Source: Anaerolineae bacterium
GTDB taxonomy: Bacteria > Chloroflexota > Anaerolineae > UBA1429
Direction of reading: 5' to 3'
DNA: 15,722 nucleotides
Assembly: GCA_016928125.1 (NCBI GenBank)
Contig: JAFGLK010000273.1
Coordinates: 1-15,722 of the forward strand
Part shown: piece after piece, positions 1 to 9,049 of the stretch
Position numbering within the stretch: the first letter of the stretch is position 1
Layout of the letters: every line of letters starts with the position of its first letter
Translations under genes and position numbers: made by a program
The notes under the pieces: model-generated
What the model was told of the DNA's origin: nothing
What the model saw: only the letters and a program-made list of their open reading frames with translations
Database searches by the model: none

Positions 1-183
1 GCCGATGCCGCGGTGCTTGCGACCAAGGTCGATGGCGTCCTTCTGGTGGTGAGCGCTGGCGAGACCAAGCGAGAGAGCGCACAGCAAGCCATCGAGCGGC
101 TGAGAAAGGTCAATGCTCATATTCTCGGCGCCGTGCTGAGCAACGCTCCGTCCGATTTCGGACTGCGAACCTACTATGGGTAG
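1..183 (+). CDS. BY-type tyrosine kinase / polysaccharide export ATPase, C-terminal fragment
   Basis: Sixty residues in frame from base 1, ending at TAG 181-183; the 5' part lies outside the window. The visible segment (start DAAVLATKVDGVLLVV, then SAGETKRESAQQAIERL and AHILGAVLSNAP) matches the end of the CpsD/CapB/Wzc cytoplasmic kinase fold, where a strand ending in VVSAG is followed by a helix and the ILGAVLN-type strand. Known role of the family: autophosphorylating tyrosine kinase that controls capsule or exopolysaccharide polymerisation and export with a Wzz-like membrane partner. Walker A and B motifs are not visible, so activity cannot be judged. The tail carries only two adjacent tyrosines (RTYYG) rather than the long Tyr cluster common in this family. 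It is probably the last gene of an exopolysaccharide cluster to the left. Other MinD/ParA-like ATPases are less likely because of the SNAP-type end. Confidence 0.8.
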   Translation, partial: ADAAVLATKVDGVLLVVSAGETKRESAQQAIERLRKVNAHILGAVLSNAPSDFGLRTYYG

Positions 184-259
184 ACGCTTGACCAGCTGAT
201 GCTGTGCCACCCGTCGAGCCACGGCGCTGGGCCCGATGACGGGATCGAGCGAGCCTCTC

Positions 260-268
260 TGTGGACAA
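260..268 (-). promoter_or_regulatory. DnaA box (TTGTCCACA on minus strand)
   Basis: TGTGGACAA on the + strand. It differs from the TTATCCACA consensus at one position (third base). Same orientation as the two boxes that follow. Confidence 0.7.
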
Positions 269-291
269 CTACACCTGAGGGCCTCAAAATC

Positions 292-300
292 TGTGGATAA
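292..300 (-). promoter_or_regulatory. DnaA box, perfect consensus
   Basis: TGTGGATAA on the + strand, the exact complement of TTATCCACA. Confidence 0.8.
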
Positions 301-313
301 GCGGGAACGCGCT

Positions 314-322
314 TGTGGATAA
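314..322 (-). promoter_or_regulatory. DnaA box, perfect consensus
   Basis: Second exact TGTGGATAA, 22 bp downstream of the previous box and in the same orientation, so both sites should lie on nearly the same helical face. Confidence 0.8.
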
Positions 323-364
323 CGCCGTGCCTTACTGCTCCTTCGGAAGGCTCTCTTTCTCGAT

Positions 365-414
365 GACCACAACCCATGGTGGCATGCTTCGGACCACAAC
401 AACCTGTTGTGGTC
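365..414. repeat. Three GTTGTGGTC copies, two forming a perfect hairpin
   Basis: GACCACAAC occurs at 365-373 and 392-400, and its complement GTTGTGGTC at 406-414. The last two sit inside a perfect 10-bp inverted repeat, GACCACAACA (392-401) and TGTTGTGGTC (405-414), with a 3-base spacer. The bases after it (GCTTTGTTATG) are not a clean T-run, so a terminator is possible but not convincing. A protein-binding site within the origin-like region fits as well. Confidence 0.55.
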
Positions 415-435
415 GCTTTGTTATGTTGAGTCGAC

Positions 436-468
436 TTATCCATTACTATCCAGAGAGATATCCAGAGA
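436..468 (+). repeat. Phased TATCCA half-boxes
   Basis: TATCCA starts at 437, 447 and 459, at 10- and 12-bp intervals. The last two belong to a 10-bp direct repeat, TATCCAGAGA (447-456 and 459-468). The first is part of TTATCCATT (436-444), which matches the DnaA box at 7 of 9 bases. TATCCA is the core of the DnaA box, so these may be low-affinity DnaA sites facing the strong cluster. Confidence 0.5.
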
Positions 469-541
469 CCGTGTGTACAAGACACCACTAGATATAGACC
501 CTGCCGCCAGATGCCTTGGATGGCTTGTGCTTCCGCGGTGA

Positions 542-611
542 GAATCCACTTTTCCACCGGCCCTACTATGACTACTATCTTATATAACAGATAGAATAAC
601 CTATATCTATT
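542..611 (+). promoter_or_regulatory. Candidate DNA unwinding element: two boxes, GC cluster, DnaA-trio, AT tract
   Basis: GAATCCACT (542-550, 6 of 9 to the DnaA box) and TTTTCCACC (550-558, 7 of 9) are followed by a GC-rich cluster at 557-563. CTACTATGACTACTATC (563-579) then gives CTA triplets at 563, 566, 572 and 575, interrupted by one TGA. On the complementary strand these read 3'-GAT-5', the DnaA-trio consensus. The tract 581-611 has 25 A/T of 31. A small inverted repeat, CTATCT (575-580) and AGATAG (589-594), overlaps it. The order and orientation match the Bacillus subtilis unwinding region as I recall it. Confidence 0.65.
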
Positions 612-639
612 CACGTAGTATACTGAGACAGCGGAAAAC

Positions 640-1704
640 ATGCCCAAATATCTCGTGACGCTTCTGTGTGTGGGATTGGCATTGTTCTGTAGTGGCTGTC
701 TTGCCCCTGAGCCATTGATCGTCATACAGACAGCCGCTGTCAATTGCCCTTCGCCTGCCACGTCGCCGACTCGTGCGATTACACCGTCGCCTACGGCGAC
801 GCATGTGGCAGCGCGACCTCTGGATACGCCAACCCCCACTCCTCAACTTTCGGCAATATCGATCTACTTCGCCCCAGATCGCAGCGCTGAAGAGCAGGCC
901 GGATCGCGTCTCTATGACCAGATGGTCGAGAGCCTGGCTGAATATGCCGATCTTGAGATGCGCGCCGTCATCCCAACTAGCGAAAGGGATACCATGGATG
1001 CGCTCTGTGCAGGGGAAGCAGACGTTGCCTGGATGTCTGTGCCGGCCTATCTTCTGGCCAAGGAGCGCTGCGATGTCTCGGCACGCTACCGTGGGGTCCG
1101 CTTTGCGTGGGCGGCTACGCGCGGTCAGATCGTGGTGCAGAGCGCAGATGTGCGCACGGCGCGAGGCCTGGCTCCCATCGCGTCGTTGGCCGATCTCAAT
1201 GGCGCCAGCATGGGCTACACAGAGCCCGATTCGACCACAGGATATCTCTTTCCCAAGGCTGTGCTCCTCAGCGCGGGGGTCGAGCCCGGAGAAGAGATCT
1301 TTCTGGCAGGCGATGCCCAGGCCGTGCTGGCCGTCTACAACGGCGAGGTCGATGCGGCGGCCGGTTTCTGGGCGCCGCCACGCGCCGATGGCACGATCGG
1401 CGATGCCAGGGCTGCCATCTTGGGTGCGTATCCTGACGTCGTTCAGCGCGTCGAAATCCTGTACCTTACAGCCAGCATCCCCTCAGATCCACTCGTGTTT
1501 CGCGGTAACCTGTCTGAAGAGGTGTCAAAGAGATTGTCCTTGGCCTTTGACACTCTGGCGCGCAGCGAAGAGGGCCGTTCGCTTCTCTTCCAGTTGTATG
1601 GGCTCACGGGCCTCCTTCCGACCAACGATGGTGACTATGATGCTGTGCGCGAGATGCGCTCTTTGCTGGATATCGATCTGGGCAGGTTGCTGGCCGAATC
1701 GTAG
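640..1704 (+). CDS. PhnD-like phosphate/phosphonate-type solute-binding lipoprotein
   Basis: 354 residues, ATG start. Residues 1-20 form a lipoprotein-type signal: hydrophobic core LVTLLCVGLALF, then C-S-G-C with Cys20 as the likely lipidated residue (position -3 is Cys rather than the usual Leu). A Thr/Pro/Ser-rich linker runs to about residue 70. From about 72 a periplasmic-binding fold of the PhnD/phosphonate-binding type begins (start ISIYFAPDRS); its landmarks include GEADVAWMS, SADLNGA-type ASLADLNGASMGY, DSTTGYLFPKA and VYNGEVDAAAGF. Family members bind phosphate, phosphite or alkylphosphonates for an ABC importer. No permease or ATPase gene adjoins, so this is an orphan that could serve a distant transporter or act as a sensor. 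It lies just right of the AT-rich origin-like tract. The upstream Shine-Dalgarno sequence is weak (GCGGA). Ligand cannot be assigned from sequence. Confidence 0.85.
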   Translation: MPKYLVTLLCVGLALFCSGCLAPEPLIVIQTAAVNCPSPATSPTRAITPSPTATHVAARPLDTPTPTPQLSAISIYFAPDRSAEEQAGSRLYDQMVESLAEYADLEMRAVIPTSERDTMDALCAGEADVAWMSVPAYLLAKERCDVSARYRGVRFAWAATRGQIVVQSADVRTARGLAPIASLADLNGASMGYTEPDSTTGYLFPKAVLLSAGVEPGEEIFLAGDAQAVLAVYNGEVDAAAGFWAPPRADGTIGDARAAILGAYPDVVQRVEILYLTASIPSDPLVFRGNLSEEVSKRLSLAFDTLARSEEGRSLLFQLYGLTGLLPTNDGDYDAVREMRSLLDIDLGRLLAES

Positions 1705-1810: not shown

Positions 1811-1847
1811 GGTGGTGGACCGTTCATGGGGCATGGGGATCTGCTGC

Positions 1848-2639
1848 ATGGCTACAAAGGAGCGTTGCGCCAGCCGAATCTGGCTTCCGTTCATATTGGG
1901 GCTGTTTCTCGTCGCTGGTCTGTCGTGTGGTCAGCGCTCGGATGAGATCACATCCCAGAAATCCGCCCCAAAGGTAACGGCTGCCCCTGTTGACGCGCCT
2001 ACCGCGGATCCGCTTGCAGGGAGCAGGCAGGAGATGGTCAGGTCTCAGATCGAGGGGCGTGGTGTTACGGATCGGGACGTGCTCCGGGCCATGGAGAAAG
2101 TGCCAAGACATGAGTTCGTCCCCGATGACTATCTCGGCCAGGCTTACGAAGATCATCCTTTGCCGATAGGCTATGGGCAAACGATCTCACAGCCCTACAT
2201 GGTGGCCGCCATGACCGAGTTGCTCAAGCTGGCGTCTAGCTCTCGGGTCCTCGAAATTGGCACGGGCTCCGGCTACCAGGCGGCGATCCTGGGCGAGTTA
2301 GCCGGTGAGGTCTATACAATCGAGATCATCCCCGAACTCTGTGAACAAGCGAAGGAGCGCTTGGCGCGCTTGGGCTACACGCAGATTCAGGTCAAGTGCG
2401 CCGATGGTTATTATGGTTGGGAGGGGCACGCCCCGTATGATGCGATCATTGTGACGTGTGCGCCCGACCACATTCCACAGCCTTTGGTATCGCAGCTCGC
2501 GGATGGTGGACGCATGGTCATTCCTGTGGGGCCGCCTGGGGCCTATCAGGTGCTCTGGTTGGTGGAGCGCCGTGGCCAGGAGACCAAGACAGAGCGCATC
2601 ATGGGTGTGGCTTTTGTGCCCCTCACAGGCGGTCACTAG
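1848..2639 (+). CDS. pcm: Protein-L-isoaspartate O-methyltransferase with N-terminal export/anchor segment
   Basis: 263 residues from ATG 1848, preceded by TGGGGAT; in-frame ATGs at 1809 and 1833 are possible but the first overlaps the promoter. The enzyme transfers a methyl group from S-adenosylmethionine to isoaspartyl residues to start their repair. Seen: hydrophobic segment about 11-26 ending at Cys27 (LVAGLSCG), an Ala/Pro linker to about residue 55, then the complete PCMT domain. The substrate loop lies at about 102-116 (DHPLPIGYGQTISQP, with the family's conserved Ser), the SAM-binding motif at about 134-144 (VLEIGTGSGYQ), and the later strand DAIIVTCAP with GGRMVIPVG. The usual enzyme is about 210 residues and cytosolic; here roughly 55 extra residues suggest a membrane-anchored or lipidated form. 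The lipobox is not classical (Gly at -3). The last 17 bases overlap the convergent membrane-protein gene. Confidence 0.9.
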   Translation: MATKERCASRIWLPFILGLFLVAGLSCGQRSDEITSQKSAPKVTAAPVDAPTADPLAGSRQEMVRSQIEGRGVTDRDVLRAMEKVPRHEFVPDDYLGQAYEDHPLPIGYGQTISQPYMVAAMTELLKLASSSRVLEIGTGSGYQAAILGELAGEVYTIEIIPELCEQAKERLARLGYTQIQVKCADGYYGWEGHAPYDAIIVTCAPDHIPQPLVSQLADGGRMVIPVGPPGAYQVLWLVERRGQETKTERIMGVAFVPLTGGH

Positions 2640-5037
2640 GGCGCCACATACCTCTGCCAGGCAGCCAGCACATGCCCAGCGCGATGAGATAGCAGCACGC
2701 GGCCAGGGCCAGCACAAAGCGGTAGCCTCTTGACAGGGCAAGCACGGTCGCCAGAATCGAGCTGATCACCGACGCGCTGCCATTGACGGCCCAGATCCAT
2801 GGCACCAGGTTCCCCTCTGCATCTGCCATCCTCGCCAGCCCTCCAGCGAATGGGATGCCCATCACGAATCCGATAGGCGCCAGGCAGAGCAGCGCCAGCG
2901 GCACGCGTGCGGCCAATGGCCAGGCGATGGTGCGTGCGAACAGCCCCTGCAGGAAAAAGGGATAGCCCAAGGCCAGGACAACGAGCAAGAGTAACACGTA
3001 GCGCAGAGAGACCCGCCGCGAGTGGATGCTGCCTAACCCGGAGGAGATCAGCAGGCCCGCAAGCACCACGATAAACGAGTAGGCGGGCTGGCCCAGATAC
3101 AAGATACAGTGCTGCATGAGGGGCATCTCGATCAGCATGAAGGCGAGTCCGAGCGCAAAAAAGTAGCCCGCGATACGCCCTGTGTGTCGAGCAGACGATC
3201 TGTCGCGTGAGGCCACCACCATCGGGATGCTCATGAGGATCAGGCTGGCCAAGATCGCAAAGAGGAGTAGCAGAAGCACCAGCAAAAAGCCACTGCCGCC
3301 AAAGGGCTGCCAGCTCTTGCCTAGTTGCGCCATGATCTGGGGAATCTGTCGGGGGCGGAAATGATGTCCGAAGAAGGGGCGGTTATCAGAGGGAGGCGAG
3401 ATATCATAGAGGCTATCTTCGAAGGCTTGGGCACGTCTCTCTGGGTCTACGAGCTGATCTAGCGCGTCAAAGTAGAGGGGAGCAGGCAGCTTGTTGTGTT
3501 GATTGGCCTCAGCCCTGGGCATGCTCGGGTAGAACACCAGATCATATCCCATCTGCGCACAAAAAGACCTGAGTCTGTCCACGGCCCTTTCGGAGAACGC
3601 CGTCGGACTGGCGATCAGCGTGAGGGTCGACCAAGAGCGGTAGGCCAGCAGGTGGCGCCCCGGCTCGTAGATGCCCGTCCGCTCTAGCGCGGCAATCGTC
3701 AAAGCTGCGGCACGCACCGATTCACTGGGAGGATCCTGCAGCCAGCGGGTGATGACCAGGATGCCCTCGCGCTCAAGGTGTTGTAGGGCAATTGTCAACG
3801 ATTCCACGGTGTAGAGATAGTTCTCCGCCAAGCTGTAGGTGCCGACCGCCAGCGGATGAAAGCTCTCACTCAACGAGAATTGGATGATATCGAACGCCTC
3901 CGCTGAGCGCGCAAGAGCTGTCCGTCCACTCTCCACCTGGATCGTCACCCGCGAGTCTTGGTAAAGGTCGCCGGTAAAGGGGCCGTACAGATCTCGGACG
4001 ATGTGTACGACCAGGTCATTGTCCTCAACCACCTGAACCTCTCTAGCCCCCGCCCTGAGCGCGACTGCCACATCCAGGCCGGCGCGGGGCTGGATGATCA
4101 AGGTCTTGGCTTGGGGCACAATCTGATAGGCGAATGCCGAGGGCAGATAGTCTAGAAAAGCTGTATCGGCGTCGTTCAGGCGGCGAGACAAGGGGCTCAG
4201 GTTGTCCCCGTCGATCGTCAGGCCATGCTGAGGGGGCAGTCTGCCGGCATAGTTGAGGCTCAGGCCGGGCGCGGAATGGATCTGCACGCTTTCGACCACA
4301 TCGACGCGCGAAAAGGTATTCCAGCCTTGATAGGCGTGTTGCGCCCCCGCCGACTGCAGTGCGTAGCTCAGCGCCTTGTGTGGGGAGAGCCGCAGACGCC
4401 ACCATGCCGGCGGAAACATACTCATATAGACTCCCATGATCGCCAGCAAGCCTGACGCGATGTATGGAGCAGGTCTGTGCCGCGAAGGCATGTGAAACAG
4501 CATGCCCATGGCTCCCAAGGCGCCCATCGCGCCGGCCAACGCGATCGTCCCTTCGCCGCCCAAGCTCGGCAAGGTGCTAGCGAGCGAGAGGCCGCCCAGC
4601 CCCGATCCGATCAAGTTGGCGGCATACACGCGGTGGCTCTCACGGCCAGAGGCCGTCAACCAGTAGGCCAGCAGGTAGCCAGCCAGAGCGAATGGCACCA
4701 CGAGGCCGATATAGTAGATGGCCAGGTAGAGGATCTGACGACGCGACCACATGAGTTGATACGAATCAAAGGGGATGGTATTGATGAGCGAGTAGGCTCC
4801 CCAGATGCTCAGAGGAAAGGCGAGGGCCACCCAGGGCCAGCGGCGCGCAGAGATTTGCGGCCGCAGCGACAGCCAGGTCCCGCTGGCGGCGTAGCCGAGC
4901 AGCGCGACGCTGACGCTCAAGAAGGCCAGGTGGTACCATTCGATGAGGGCAAATACGCGGGTCAGTGCGAGCTCGAACATGAGGGTGGCGCCGGAGATCA
5001 GCACGATGCCCGCATAGAAGGAACCCTTGCGTGCCAC
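2623..5037 (-). CDS. Polytopic membrane protein with spermidine-synthase-like domain
   Basis: 804 residues. The start is GTG (5035-5037), with GAGGGGG a few bases upstream; the nearest upstream ATG is out of frame. Three parts are visible. Residues about 8-210 hold several TM helices (ISGATLMFELALTRVFAL motif, YAANLIGSGLGGL). About 240-500 is a soluble Rossmann-like region related to spermidine synthases (KTLIIQPRAGLDVAVALRAG, VQVVEDNDLVV, FDIIQFSLSES, SLAENYLYTVESL). About 583-790 is a second TM block (FMLIEMPLMQ, ISSGLGS, PFAGGL, WAVNGSASV). The classic Gly-rich GGGxG and the catalytic Asp pair of true spermidine synthases are absent: the position of the usual D-x-x-D reads FDIIQFS. It is therefore unlikely to make spermidine; substrate unknown. 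Such multi-TM relatives are often annotated 'spermidine synthase'. It overlaps the pcm end by 17 bp. Confidence 0.85.
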   Translation of the reverse strand: MARKGSFYAGIVLISGATLMFELALTRVFALIEWYHLAFLSVSVALLGYAASGTWLSLRPQISARRWPWVALAFPLSIWGAYSLINTIPFDSYQLMWSRRQILYLAIYYIGLVVPFALAGYLLAYWLTASGRESHRVYAANLIGSGLGGLSLASTLPSLGGEGTIALAGAMGALGAMGMLFHMPSRHRPAPYIASGLLAIMGVYMSMFPPAWWRLRLSPHKALSYALQSAGAQHAYQGWNTFSRVDVVESVQIHSAPGLSLNYAGRLPPQHGLTIDGDNLSPLSRRLNDADTAFLDYLPSAFAYQIVPQAKTLIIQPRAGLDVAVALRAGAREVQVVEDNDLVVHIVRDLYGPFTGDLYQDSRVTIQVESGRTALARSAEAFDIIQFSLSESFHPLAVGTYSLAENYLYTVESLTIALQHLEREGILVITRWLQDPPSESVRAAALTIAALERTGIYEPGRHLLAYRSWSTLTLIASPTAFSERAVDRLRSFCAQMGYDLVFYPSMPRAEANQHNKLPAPLYFDALDQLVDPERRAQAFEDSLYDISPPSDNRPFFGHHFRPRQIPQIMAQLGKSWQPFGGSGFLLVLLLLLFAILASLILMSIPMVVASRDRSSARHTGRIAGYFFALGLAFMLIEMPLMQHCILYLGQPAYSFIVVLAGLLISSGLGSIHSRRVSLRYVLLLLVVLALGYPFFLQGLFARTIAWPLAARVPLALLCLAPIGFVMGIPFAGGLARMADAEGNLVPWIWAVNGSASVISSILATVLALSRGYRFVLALAACCYLIALGMCWLPGRGMWRPSDRL

Positions 5038-6214: not shown

Positions 6215-9049
6215 CTATCTAGGCCGATTGCTCGGGTCGAGCCAGCGCCGGGCAGAATTGGGGAGCGAGGAAAGTGGCCCCTGACGCGCGGTACAGGGCG
6301 GCAAGGACCGCAGGATCGTGGCGCCATAGGACCTGGTCAGAATGCGCTTGTCCAGTAGCACGATGATGCCATAGTCATCTCGGCTGCGAATCAAGCGCCC
6401 AAAGCCCTGCCTAAAGCGCAAGATGGCTTCGGGGAGATGGTATTGGTTGAATGCATCCTCGAACGTCTCGGCCCTGGCCGCGAGAATCGGGTCGGTGGGC
6501 ACGGCAAAGGGAAGCCTCACGATGACCAGGCAGCTCAACGCCTGCCCCACGATGTCGACTCCTTCCCAGAAGCTGCGCGTGCCCAGCAGAACCGCCTTTG
6601 GGGTTGTGCGAAAGCTTTCCAGAATCTGCCGACGCGATCCGTCGATCCCCTGGCCAAAGAGGACGATCCCCTCGGCCTCAAGGGCGCGCTGGATGGCGTG
6701 GTAGGTGGCGTGAAGTTGGCTGTTGGACGTAAAGAGCACCAACATGCGCCCCTCTGTGGCTTTGCACAGATCGACGAGCGCCGCTTCGACTTGCTTCTGG
6801 TAGTAGGGCTGATTGGGCTCTGGGATATCCTTGGGCACATAGAGCAGGACGGCCGATTTCAGGTCAAAGGGAGAATCGAGCGCCAGCTCAACAGGGTCCT
6901 CGAGCCCCAATCGCTCGCTGATATAGTCAAAACTGCCCGCAGTACGCAGGGTGGCCGATGTCAAGATGGCCGTATCGACTTGACTGAAGAGCCGCTCTTG
7001 AAGGGTGGGGCCGATGTGCAGCGGCGCGCTATGCAGCGACAGCTCTCGGGTGCGCGGAGAGAGTGAGAACCAGTAGATCCCGTTCTCTTGGGGCTCAAAG
7101 AGGATGCTATCCAGACCCATCCAGATCTCAGTGCCGCGTTGTAGATAGGTGCGCACCTCTTGGGCGAGCTCGTTGCGCGCCTCATCGTCTTCCCCGCTGA
7201 TTGCTTCGATCCGCCCCAAGAGCCTTTCCAGCCCGTCCAGTATCTCCTTGAGGGGAGCCGACAAGCTTTCCCAGGCGATCTCGACGTTGCTCCACTCGGG
7301 CTGGGTGCGGAGTCCAGAGGTCAGACGCACTTGCTGATCATAGGTCTGGCCCTTCGCCAGGTCCAACTTGCCCATGCCGTCAAGAAAATGCTCGAACGTG
7401 TTGAACAGCTCATAGAGCCGCCTTTCAGCGATCTCGATCTGCTCAAGCAGCCCGTCGATGAGGGACGTGACCACATCGCGAACTGCGGGGCTCGCCTCGC
7501 GCTCAACGAAAAGCCCGGGCACACTGGCCAGCAGGCCGCCTGGCATATTGTTGCGCTCATGGCCCAGGCCGTTCAGAAAGGCATAGATCTCTTGTCGTCC
7601 AGCCTCAAACCCAAACTGATTGGTCGCCTGCTCCTCCAGATGGTGCGCCTCGTCGATGATCACATGCCGGTATTCGGGCAGTATACGGTTGTCGAGCACG
7701 AGATCCGACAGCAAGAGGGCGTGATTGATGATCACGATGTGAGCTCGCTCGGCCCGCGCGCGGGCCCGATAGAAGAAACACTGTCCAGACTGCCTGAAGG
7801 GACACAGCTCTCCCATGCACGTCTCAGAGGATGCCCCGAATTGGCTCCAGATGGCGTTCTCCTCGTTGATCAGCAGCAGCTCTGCCCGGTCGCCGGTCTG
7901 TGTCTGCGGCAGCCAGGCAAGGATCTTGGCCATGACGCGGGCTTCCTCTATCGAGAGCGGCCCCGCCCGGCGCTTTTGATTGAGGCTCCGTAGACAGATG
8001 TAGTTGCTCCGCCCCTTGAGCAGCGCGACCTGAAAATCGAGGGGCAAAATGCGCTTCAGATCGGGAATGTCCTTGGTGTAGAGTTGATCCTGCAGGTTGA
8101 TCGTGTTCGAGGAGACAATCACCCGACGTCCGTTCCGGACGGCAAAAAGGATGGCCGGCAAGAGATAGGCGAGCGACTTGCCTGTGCCGGTGCCCGCCTC
8201 GACCAGCAGATGCGTAGGATAGTTGAAGGAATCTCCCACCGCCTGGAGCATTTCGATCTGTTGGGTGCGGTATTCGTAGCCTGCGAAGGAGCGCTCAAAA
8301 GGGCCACCTGGCGAGAGGAAGGCGCTGAGTTCCTCCAGGTCGAGGGGTTCGATCTCTTCGGTTGGCTTGAGTGGTGACCACTGCGGCTCAGGCTGTATAT
8401 GTGCCAGCGACATACGCCCCGTCTCGCGTTGCGCCAGCGCCGAGCCGCCATCGCGCTGATCTCGCTCTGAGAGGATGTCTCGGAAGACTTGCAGGAGGGG
8501 CCATTGGGCGTCGTTTGCCAGGCGGCTCATCTCCTCGAGCGCGGCGCGATCCCAGCTGGAGGCGCCCTGGACGAGCGTCAAGAAGAGATCCCTCGTGGTC
8601 ATGGCATCGGCCAGGGCGCGATGGCTCTGGGCCACGTCGATGCCTCGATCCTCGGCCAGGGAGGCCAAAGTGTAACGCTCAGCCTCGGGTAGGAGGATGG
8701 TGGCGAGCTCAAAAGTATCGACCGTCATGTTCTGCAGGCTGAGGCCCTGGCGCGCGAGAAATGCAAGATCGTTGAGCACGTTGTGGCCCACCAGCGGATA
8801 GTGTTTCACAAAGGAGAGGATCTTGCCCCTCAGACTGCTGAAAGGAGGCGCAGCATCGATCTCGGCCTGGCTGATCCCAACCATCTGCTCGATCTTGAGG
8901 GGGATTCTGCGATCTGAATGGACCAGGCTGGTAAACGTCTCGAGCACCTCGTCACCACGAAACCTGACGAGGCCGATCTCGATGATCTCATCGCGATCGA
9001 CGTCCAGGCCCGTCAGCTCCAGATCCAGAGAAACATAGATGCGGGGCAT
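6215..9049 (-). CDS. dinG: DnaQ-DinG fusion: 3'-5' exonuclease domain plus Fe-S superfamily 2 helicase
   Basis: 944 residues, ATG at 9049 with a strong GGGAGGAGG Shine-Dalgarno. Residues 1-160 are a DEDDh exonuclease: Asp9 and Glu11 (DLELTG), Asp94 (GHNVLND), His143 and Asp148 (HRALAD). About 245-930 is an XPD/DinG-type helicase: Walker A at 283-292 (VEAGTGTGKS), DEAH box 466-469, and four cysteines at 352, 411, 416 and 424 placed to hold a 4Fe-4S cluster between motifs I and II. GTRSFWEGVDIVG and RQGFGRLIRS (about 880-889) are late helicase motifs. DinG proteins unwind 5'-3' and resolve R-loops, D-loops and G-quadruplexes; the exonuclease could trim 3' ends. All key residues appear intact. 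It is a monocistronic gene with its own promoter. Role in this organism is inferred from the family. Confidence 0.93.
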   Translation of the reverse strand: MPRIYVSLDLELTGLDVDRDEIIEIGLVRFRGDEVLETFTSLVHSDRRIPLKIEQMVGISQAEIDAAPPFSSLRGKILSFVKHYPLVGHNVLNDLAFLARQGLSLQNMTVDTFELATILLPEAERYTLASLAEDRGIDVAQSHRALADAMTTRDLFLTLVQGASSWDRAALEEMSRLANDAQWPLLQVFRDILSERDQRDGGSALAQRETGRMSLAHIQPEPQWSPLKPTEEIEPLDLEELSAFLSPGGPFERSFAGYEYRTQQIEMLQAVGDSFNYPTHLLVEAGTGTGKSLAYLLPAILFAVRNGRRVIVSSNTINLQDQLYTKDIPDLKRILPLDFQVALLKGRSNYICLRSLNQKRRAGPLSIEEARVMAKILAWLPQTQTGDRAELLLINEENAIWSQFGASSETCMGELCPFRQSGQCFFYRARARAERAHIVIINHALLLSDLVLDNRILPEYRHVIIDEAHHLEEQATNQFGFEAGRQEIYAFLNGLGHERNNMPGGLLASVPGLFVEREASPAVRDVVTSLIDGLLEQIEIAERRLYELFNTFEHFLDGMGKLDLAKGQTYDQQVRLTSGLRTQPEWSNVEIAWESLSAPLKEILDGLERLLGRIEAISGEDDEARNELAQEVRTYLQRGTEIWMGLDSILFEPQENGIYWFSLSPRTRELSLHSAPLHIGPTLQERLFSQVDTAILTSATLRTAGSFDYISERLGLEDPVELALDSPFDLKSAVLLYVPKDIPEPNQPYYQKQVEAALVDLCKATEGRMLVLFTSNSQLHATYHAIQRALEAEGIVLFGQGIDGSRRQILESFRTTPKAVLLGTRSFWEGVDIVGQALSCLVIVRLPFAVPTDPILAARAETFEDAFNQYHLPEAILRFRQGFGRLIRSRDDYGIIVLLDKRILTRSYGATILRSLPPCTARQGPLSSLPNSARRWLDPSNRPR

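Follow-up and report, generated by a model that had tools for sequence, protein, structure and literature searches.

The closest described counterpart of the region reported here is the incC part of Bacillus subtilis oriC, in which a co-oriented pair of DnaA boxes (DnaA-box 6/7) is followed by a GGCC spacer, DnaA-trios with the consensus 3'-GAT-5' and an AT-rich tract, with further boxes upstream. The complementary T in the middle of the trio is highly conserved in B. subtilis and H. pylori (PMC8235120), and looping to the unwinding site has been proposed for B. subtilis (PMC6669920). The BUS program of Pelliciari 2021 requires an uninterrupted run of three or more 3'-NAN-5' trios that lies no further than 16 bp from a box (PMC8287927). 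In 2023, it was reported that the central A of B. subtilis trios can be replaced by C with a similar rate in vitro and with a better performance in vivo than G or T. The explanation given was the amino group, common to A and C, that contacts DnaA Asn187, and in the same work it was suggested that the sequences read by other DnaA proteins might be diverse (PMC10721633).

A bacterial oriC located away from dnaA is already known (PMC10225481), and in Ktedonobacteria dnaA and dnaN are found together with parA and parB (PMC13289182). In the abstract openings examined from the literature on Anaerolineae and Chloroflexi origins, no origin such as the present one is described, nor is it in the available text of PMC5109545 and PMC13289182. 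Here, we analysed a whole contig of 15,722 bp from an Anaerolineae bacterium (the window), in which positions 255-625 very probably form the DnaA-dependent chromosomal oriC. Being an origin is in itself ordinary; what is new is the locus, within the literature examined, and a natural variant of the DnaA-trio that is centred on A or C.

Anatomy of the origin-like region

A box scan of the whole window revealed only three DnaA boxes with zero or one mismatch, two exact copies of TTATCCACA and one TTGTCCACA, which are all on the minus strand and separated by 32 and then 22 bp (Table 1). In first-order Markov sequences of equal length, 0.037 exact boxes are expected on average and two were seen in none of 1000 simulations. 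An earlier note on this DNA had pointed to these three boxes and had judged two exact 9-mers 22 bp apart to be very unlikely by chance, which agrees with the scan and with the simulations. The elements that it had described further to the right were also found again: opposite-facing TATCCA cores (437-442, 447-452 and 459-464), a weak box pair, a GC cluster and an AT-rich tract. The relatives have exact boxes at the positions of these degenerate cores. In 40-bp segments over 561-620, the GC content drops to 25-30% versus 60% for the whole window.

Table 1. Positions and strands of the DnaA boxes, unwinding elements and flanking genes in the window
Feature	Position	Strand	Basis
CpsD/eps-type polysaccharide tyrosine autokinase, gene 3' end, left neighbour	1..183	+	homology to L001
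DnaA box, one mismatch, TTGTCCACA	260..268	-	box scan
DnaA box, exact, TTATCCACA	292..300	-	box scan; recurs in relatives with the 314..322 box, 22 bp apart
DnaA box, exact, TTATCCACA	314..322	-	box scan; class-wide pair pattern
Weak DnaA box, TTATCCATT, two mismatches, facing the unwinding site	436..444	+	box scan; alignment of relatives
Weak DnaA box, CTATCCAGA, two mismatches	446..454	+	exact boxes at the same offset (-104) in G013 and G014
Weak DnaA box, ATATCCAGA, two mismatches	458..466	+	exact boxes at -93 and -91 in G001 and G003
Weak DnaA box, TTGTACACA, two mismatches	472..480	-	exact box at -78/-79 in G005, G012 and G014
Co-oriented weak box pair at the unwinding site, GAATCCACT (542-550) and TTTTCCACC (550-558)	542..558	+	sequence; -8/0 pair recurs in the order
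GC-rich spacer GGCC	559..562	+	sequence; same letters for B. subtilis in the available text of PMC8235120
DnaA-trio tract, bottom strand 3'-GAT GAT ACT GAT GAT-5', C at the centre of the third trio	563..577	-	sequence; alignment with relatives
AT-rich tract, putative unwinding element	578..625	.	low GC
PhnD-like lipoprotein gene (PF12974), right neighbour	640..1704	+	domain match; relatives
Protein-L-isoaspartate methyltransferase (PCMT), recurrent right neighbour	1845..2639	+	domain match; relatives
DinG-family helicase/exonuclease, recurrent right neighbour	6215..9049	-	domain match; relatives

Directly after the spacer, the top strand reads CTA CTA TGA CTA CTA. The in-phase CTA triplets of the earlier note are present, and its trio formula 3'-[G/A]A[T/A]-5' breaks down at the third triplet, TGA, which gives 3'-ACT-5' on the bottom strand. 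As a consequence of this C, the longest strict 3'-NAN-5' run amounts to two trios, fewer than the three consecutive ones of the published BUS rule, while an amine base (A or C) occupies the centre of all five. The boxes lie within the limits of the same rule: TTTTCCACC has two mismatches (limit two), its partner GAATCCACT has three as counted by eye (limit four), and 4 bp (limit 16) separate the former from position 563 (PMC8287927). The tract should work like a BUS although it falls outside the published rule.

The region resembles B. subtilis incC in the order of its parts, the co-oriented box pair, the GGCC spacer, the trio consensus, the AT tract and the presence of further boxes upstream. 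Unlike in B. subtilis, its strong upstream boxes face away from the trios and show a recurrent spacing of 20-22 bp, its trio centres alternate between A and C where the middle A of B. subtilis is described as conserved, and the origin of this order is not beside dnaA. An arrangement in which the strong boxes point away from the trios, the weak boxes are central and a box pair adjoins the trios fits the looping of a DnaA chain, and from it we infer that DnaA binds, loops, opens the DNA and initiates replication at 255-625. DnaA may load first on the strong boxes (260-322), whose orientation is away from the opening site, and its chain would then reach across the weak opposite-facing boxes (436-480) to the box pair (542-558). 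From there, DnaA would cross the GGCC spacer to the bottom strand and capture its bases trio by trio (563-577), which would open the AT-rich tract (578-625) for helicase loading.

A perfect 10-bp inverted repeat, GACCACAACA-ACC-TGTTGTGGTC, is found in the middle of the region at 392-414, with a further GACCACAAC copy at 365-373. This palindrome (GACCACAACAACCTGTTGTGGTC) was weighed as a regulator site and set aside, being absent from the 11 relatives examined. Scans of the window with Rfam at gathering thresholds and with ARAGORN for tRNA genes gave no match.

Conservation of the locus and separation from dnaA

The PhnD protein of the window has its closest named relatives in Chloroflexota. 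In an alignment scan of genome contigs with this protein, the closest of 38 loci was L001 (44% identical), which belongs to a Chloroflexota MAG, G001. The 15 genomes of the order of G001, the nearest order, served as comparison set; the same class includes G252 with the Anaerolineales chromosome CP070811.1 and is for this reason taken to be Anaerolineae. The gene order of L001 is that of the window (kinase, origin-like gap, PhnD, PCMT, 804-aa membrane protein, sugar transferase, DinG), and its gap holds a box cluster and the same unwinding motif. The kinase fragment of the window is 59% identical over 58 aa to L001 3285-3950; the latter scores above the cut-off of NCBIfam TIGR01007 (polysaccharide biosynthesis tyrosine autokinase), an enzyme type that includes CpsD. 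A TIGR01007 homolog on the left and PF12974 on the right bear out the two flanks, a polysaccharide kinase and a PhnD lipoprotein gene, that had been proposed in the earlier note. Further genes of the window encode CoaE, D-Tyr-tRNA deacylase and a starch/glycogen synthase. The 804-aa protein (2623-5037, minus strand) gave no Pfam or NCBIfam match; its counterparts in G001 and G009, about 53% identical, are embedded in the same series of genes.

A 23-base pattern derived from the sites of the window and L001 matched 11 places in 10 of the 15 order genomes, and the reversed pattern 7 places in 5 of the 15. Ten of the 11 places are at the conserved locus, and the eleventh (L064, a second place in G001) is without a box. 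Two genomes without a pattern match, G002 and G010, were reached through DinG and have the cluster at the same locus. Altogether, the motif is at this locus in 12 of the 15 genomes, the remaining three (G006, G007 and G009) being unreadable there, and each readable genome has one box-bearing site of this kind. Boxes and trios missing from close relatives had been named in the earlier note as an observation that would refute an origin, and the comparison showed the opposite, with the motif kept in all 12 readable genomes; in G004 the site is cut by the contig end, so that the upstream cluster falls outside the readable part. The combination of box pair, spacer, trio register and AT tract is shared as one block within the order. 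An alignment was made of 12 sites, those of the window and of the 11 readable genomes other than G004. In it, the two boxes of the upstream pair are 22 bp apart in ten and 21 bp apart in G015 and G010, and in G013 the second box has two mismatches.

The left neighbour is the kinase gene in the window and in 10 of the 12 genomes, the contigs of G004 and G010 starting in or after the site. To the right, PCMT and/or DinG are present in 10 of 12; the contig of G012 stops too early, and 9.5 kb of G015 contain neither. Among readable sites, PhnD is the immediate neighbour only in the window and in G001, its place being taken elsewhere, where a neighbour was assigned, by PCMT or DinG. A PF12974 gene near the site is also present in G001, G351 and G218. 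In the last two, which are outside the order, the protein is encoded about 2-5 kb from the site (L176 17133-18152 in G351, L180 13772-14893 in G218). A Lamin Tail Domain protein flanks the site in G351, G218 and G123. As far as the available text of PMC10225481 goes, the kinase, PCMT and DinG flanks are not named for other oriC sites distant from dnaA.

At the level of the class, TGTGGATAA-N11-13-TGTGGAWAA, in which the spacing of the box pair is 20-22 bp, occurs in 183 of 396 genomes versus 1 of 396 for the reversed control (counted by eye), not every place being an established origin. The box-spacer-trio pattern is found in 106 of 396 genomes versus about 23 of 396 for its control (counted by eye). 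Among the matches listed from those 106 genomes, 25 of 30 places have at least three boxes with zero or one mismatch in up to 3 kb. Dense arrays were observed at L100 (G261) and L102 (G225), where 24 of 26 and 21 of 23 boxes with zero or one mismatch in 3 kb are exact and many steps are of ~21 bp.

The dnaA gene was found in all 15 order genomes (16 places), and on a different contig from the site in 12 of the 12 readable ones. At 15 of these 16 loci, at most one box with zero or one mismatch is present in up to 3.2 kb. The exception, L079 (G015:C90), is one of the two dnaA of G015; it has four boxes and may be a contamination of the MAG. Seven genomes of the class with large contigs were compared. 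The distance between site and dnaA match is at most about 0.65 kb in G252 (site at C1:3255971) and G067 (site at C1:66390), and 0.60-0.93 Mb on one contig in G123, G351, G045 and G218 (0.62 Mb in G351 with the contig taken as a circle, 0.93 Mb in G218); in G327 the two are on different contigs. Because one class shows both adjacency to dnaA and, in other genomes, a gap of 0.6-0.9 Mb, the two have separated or rejoined during the evolution of the class.

GC skew and alternative explanations

Skew was measured on four chromosomes of the class in twenty 20-kb samples each (40 for G045) with 5000 permutations. In G351, none of the 5000 permutations gave a skew split as large as that at the site, and p was 0.30 at dnaA; in G218, p was 0.0006 at the site (about 4997 of 5000 permutations smaller) and 0.59 at dnaA. 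The coding-strand GC3 skew, which removes gene orientation, was -0.041 (leading) versus -0.126 (lagging) in G351 and -0.051 versus -0.154 in G218 with the site as origin, and -0.076 versus -0.094 and -0.098 versus -0.102, respectively, with dnaA as origin. The interpolated cumulative minima deviate from the sites by about 10 kb, and the points with the best score by about 65 and 16 kb; because sampling had included the sites themselves, positions are truly resolved only to about 0.2 Mb. The two other chromosomes gave no support, with p 0.11 at the G045 site (0.886 Mb; best points at 0.38 Mb by skew and 3.68 Mb by GC3) and p 0.78 at the G252 site (3.256 Mb; best points at 0 and 4.16 Mb). Sampled skew favours this kind of site, away from dnaA, in two of four relatives' chromosomes. 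The earlier note had counted the poor co-orientation of genes with replication as a point against an origin. This point carries little weight, since only 140 of 266 sampled ORFs in G351 and 136 of 265 in G218 are on the leading strand despite the support from skew.

In the order itself, local skew is negative over the left 5 kb in all eight genomes whose left flank extends over 4 kb or more, and positive over the right 3-5 kb in those eight, in G010 and in the window. It was dropped as a proof of an origin because it follows gene orientation when GC3 is split by gene strand: in the arms, plus-strand ORFs have -0.090 on the left and -0.089 on the right, and minus-strand ORFs +0.050 and +0.084, and the left-right shift by strand is only small, with the expected sign. 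In G009, the 56-kb arm, which should be positive, gives -0.080. In these arms, coding strands are rich in C at third codon positions, and local GC skew consequently mimics a replication signal where genes converge on an origin.

Box clusters may also bind DnaA without initiation, as in DnaA titration, for which datA is an example, or in a DnaA-controlled promoter, here that of PhnD. Such a role would suit a region that is also upstream of PhnD and in which two boxes are exact while those on the unwinding side are weak, and the evidence for an origin is of sequence only. However, titration needs no trio tract, whereas here the trio register is conserved jointly with the box pair, the spacer and the AT tract. 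Moreover, whole-chromosome skew in G351 and G218 puts the origin at such a site, no rival box cluster exists at 15 of the 16 dnaA loci of the order, and PhnD is rarely the next gene. Titration or regulation instead of initiation is improbable in the light of these observations. The origin of a second replicon (chromid or plasmid) is less probable still. The contig is short and without replicon context, and origins of DnaA-dependent secondary replicons can look similar, but the genes around the site have housekeeping roles (PCMT, DinG, CoaE, D-Tyr-tRNA deacylase, starch/glycogen synthase), the locus is found again across the order, and the sites of G351, G218 and G045 are on contigs of 3.97-4.69 Mb that correspond to nearly the whole assembly. 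The earlier note had left the choice between the chromosome and a second replicon; the former is retained, and conserved housekeeping neighbours together with a single site per readable genome make the latter unlikely.

A chance cluster of boxes next to coding-like CTAC/GAC triplets would be favoured by the matches of reversed controls (7 places in 5 of 15 genomes for the order pattern, about 23 and about 60 of 396 genomes for the class patterns, the last two by eye). Against this, boxes and trios recur together at one locus in 12 genomes, where 10 of the 11 pattern places are found, and this conservation refutes chance, to which we give next to no credit. The chromosomal oriC proposed in the earlier note is supported by the box cluster, its conservation in 12 of 15 genomes, the location of dnaA elsewhere and the skew in two of four relatives. 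The group is represented here by draft genomes only, and the site supplies it with an origin, a locus and simple markers on both sides (polysaccharide kinase, PCMT and DinG). Origin coordinates of this kind let read-depth estimates of growth rate and start coordinates be corrected.

Adenine and cytosine at trio centres

In 13 order members with five trios each, the trio centres are 45 A and 20 C of 65, and never G or T; the G008 tract is centred on A and the G010 tract mostly on C. In the search pattern, the positions set in advance were C-T-A in trio 1 and the A in trios 2 and 3; the centres of trios 2 and 3 could vary, and trios 4 and 5 were constrained by a single Y only. For G002 and G010, the register was assigned manually. 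Over trios 2-5, whose centres were free, the counts are 33 A and 19 C of 52. The top-strand A is invariant or nearly so at each third position of the tract in the 12-site alignment. In the class, a relaxed pattern with free centres in trios 2-5 matched 103 of 396 genomes versus about 60 of 396 for the reversed control (counted by eye). As this pattern is noisy alone, only places with an independent box pair within 500 bp were counted. Among the matches listed, these 24 places have 67 A, 28 C and 1 T at 96 centres. Pooled over 37 origins, whose class part is among the matches listed, A or C is found at 147 of 148 centres of trios 2-5, with C in 47, and these counts are not independent since the genomes are related. 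By comparison, the 79 remaining relaxed-pattern strings (the six copies of G100 taken once, the order's own sites excluded), a mix of origins and chance, have A or C in 246 of 316 centres, and 12 strings chosen by eye as chance-like have it in 15 of 48, a choice that may be circular. Coding DNA can mimic an A/C bias through Tyr and Asp codons (TAC, GAC); the window and order sites are intergenic.

The A/C centres of these 37 origins fit the amine-contact result of 2023 (PMC10721633), and no natural C-centred trio is named in the examined texts from the literature on DnaA-trios with cytosine. On balance, Anaerolineae origins probably represent natural evidence for an amine rule, with a trio code 3'-[G/A][A/C]T-5' whose centre is hardly ever G or T. 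If so, origin finders that demand both NAN trios and a neighbouring dnaA would miss or mis-score such origins, perhaps in other phyla too. The 37 origins would bring evolutionary evidence on the idea that DnaA reads beyond a central A (PMC10721633), and as natural substrates they make the amine-contact model directly testable.

A and C may both be accepted at the trio centre since each carries the amino group contacted by DnaA Asn187. The DnaA of one order genome, G003 (L077), was aligned with chain 8btg. We take this chain to be the B. subtilis BUS structure, and the residues named in the 2023 paper fall at its numbers. In this numbering, the trio-contacting residues N187, I193, R202 and E228 are kept and position 190 is Val in place of Ile. 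By eye, the DnaA proteins of G009 and G010 also keep the Asn.
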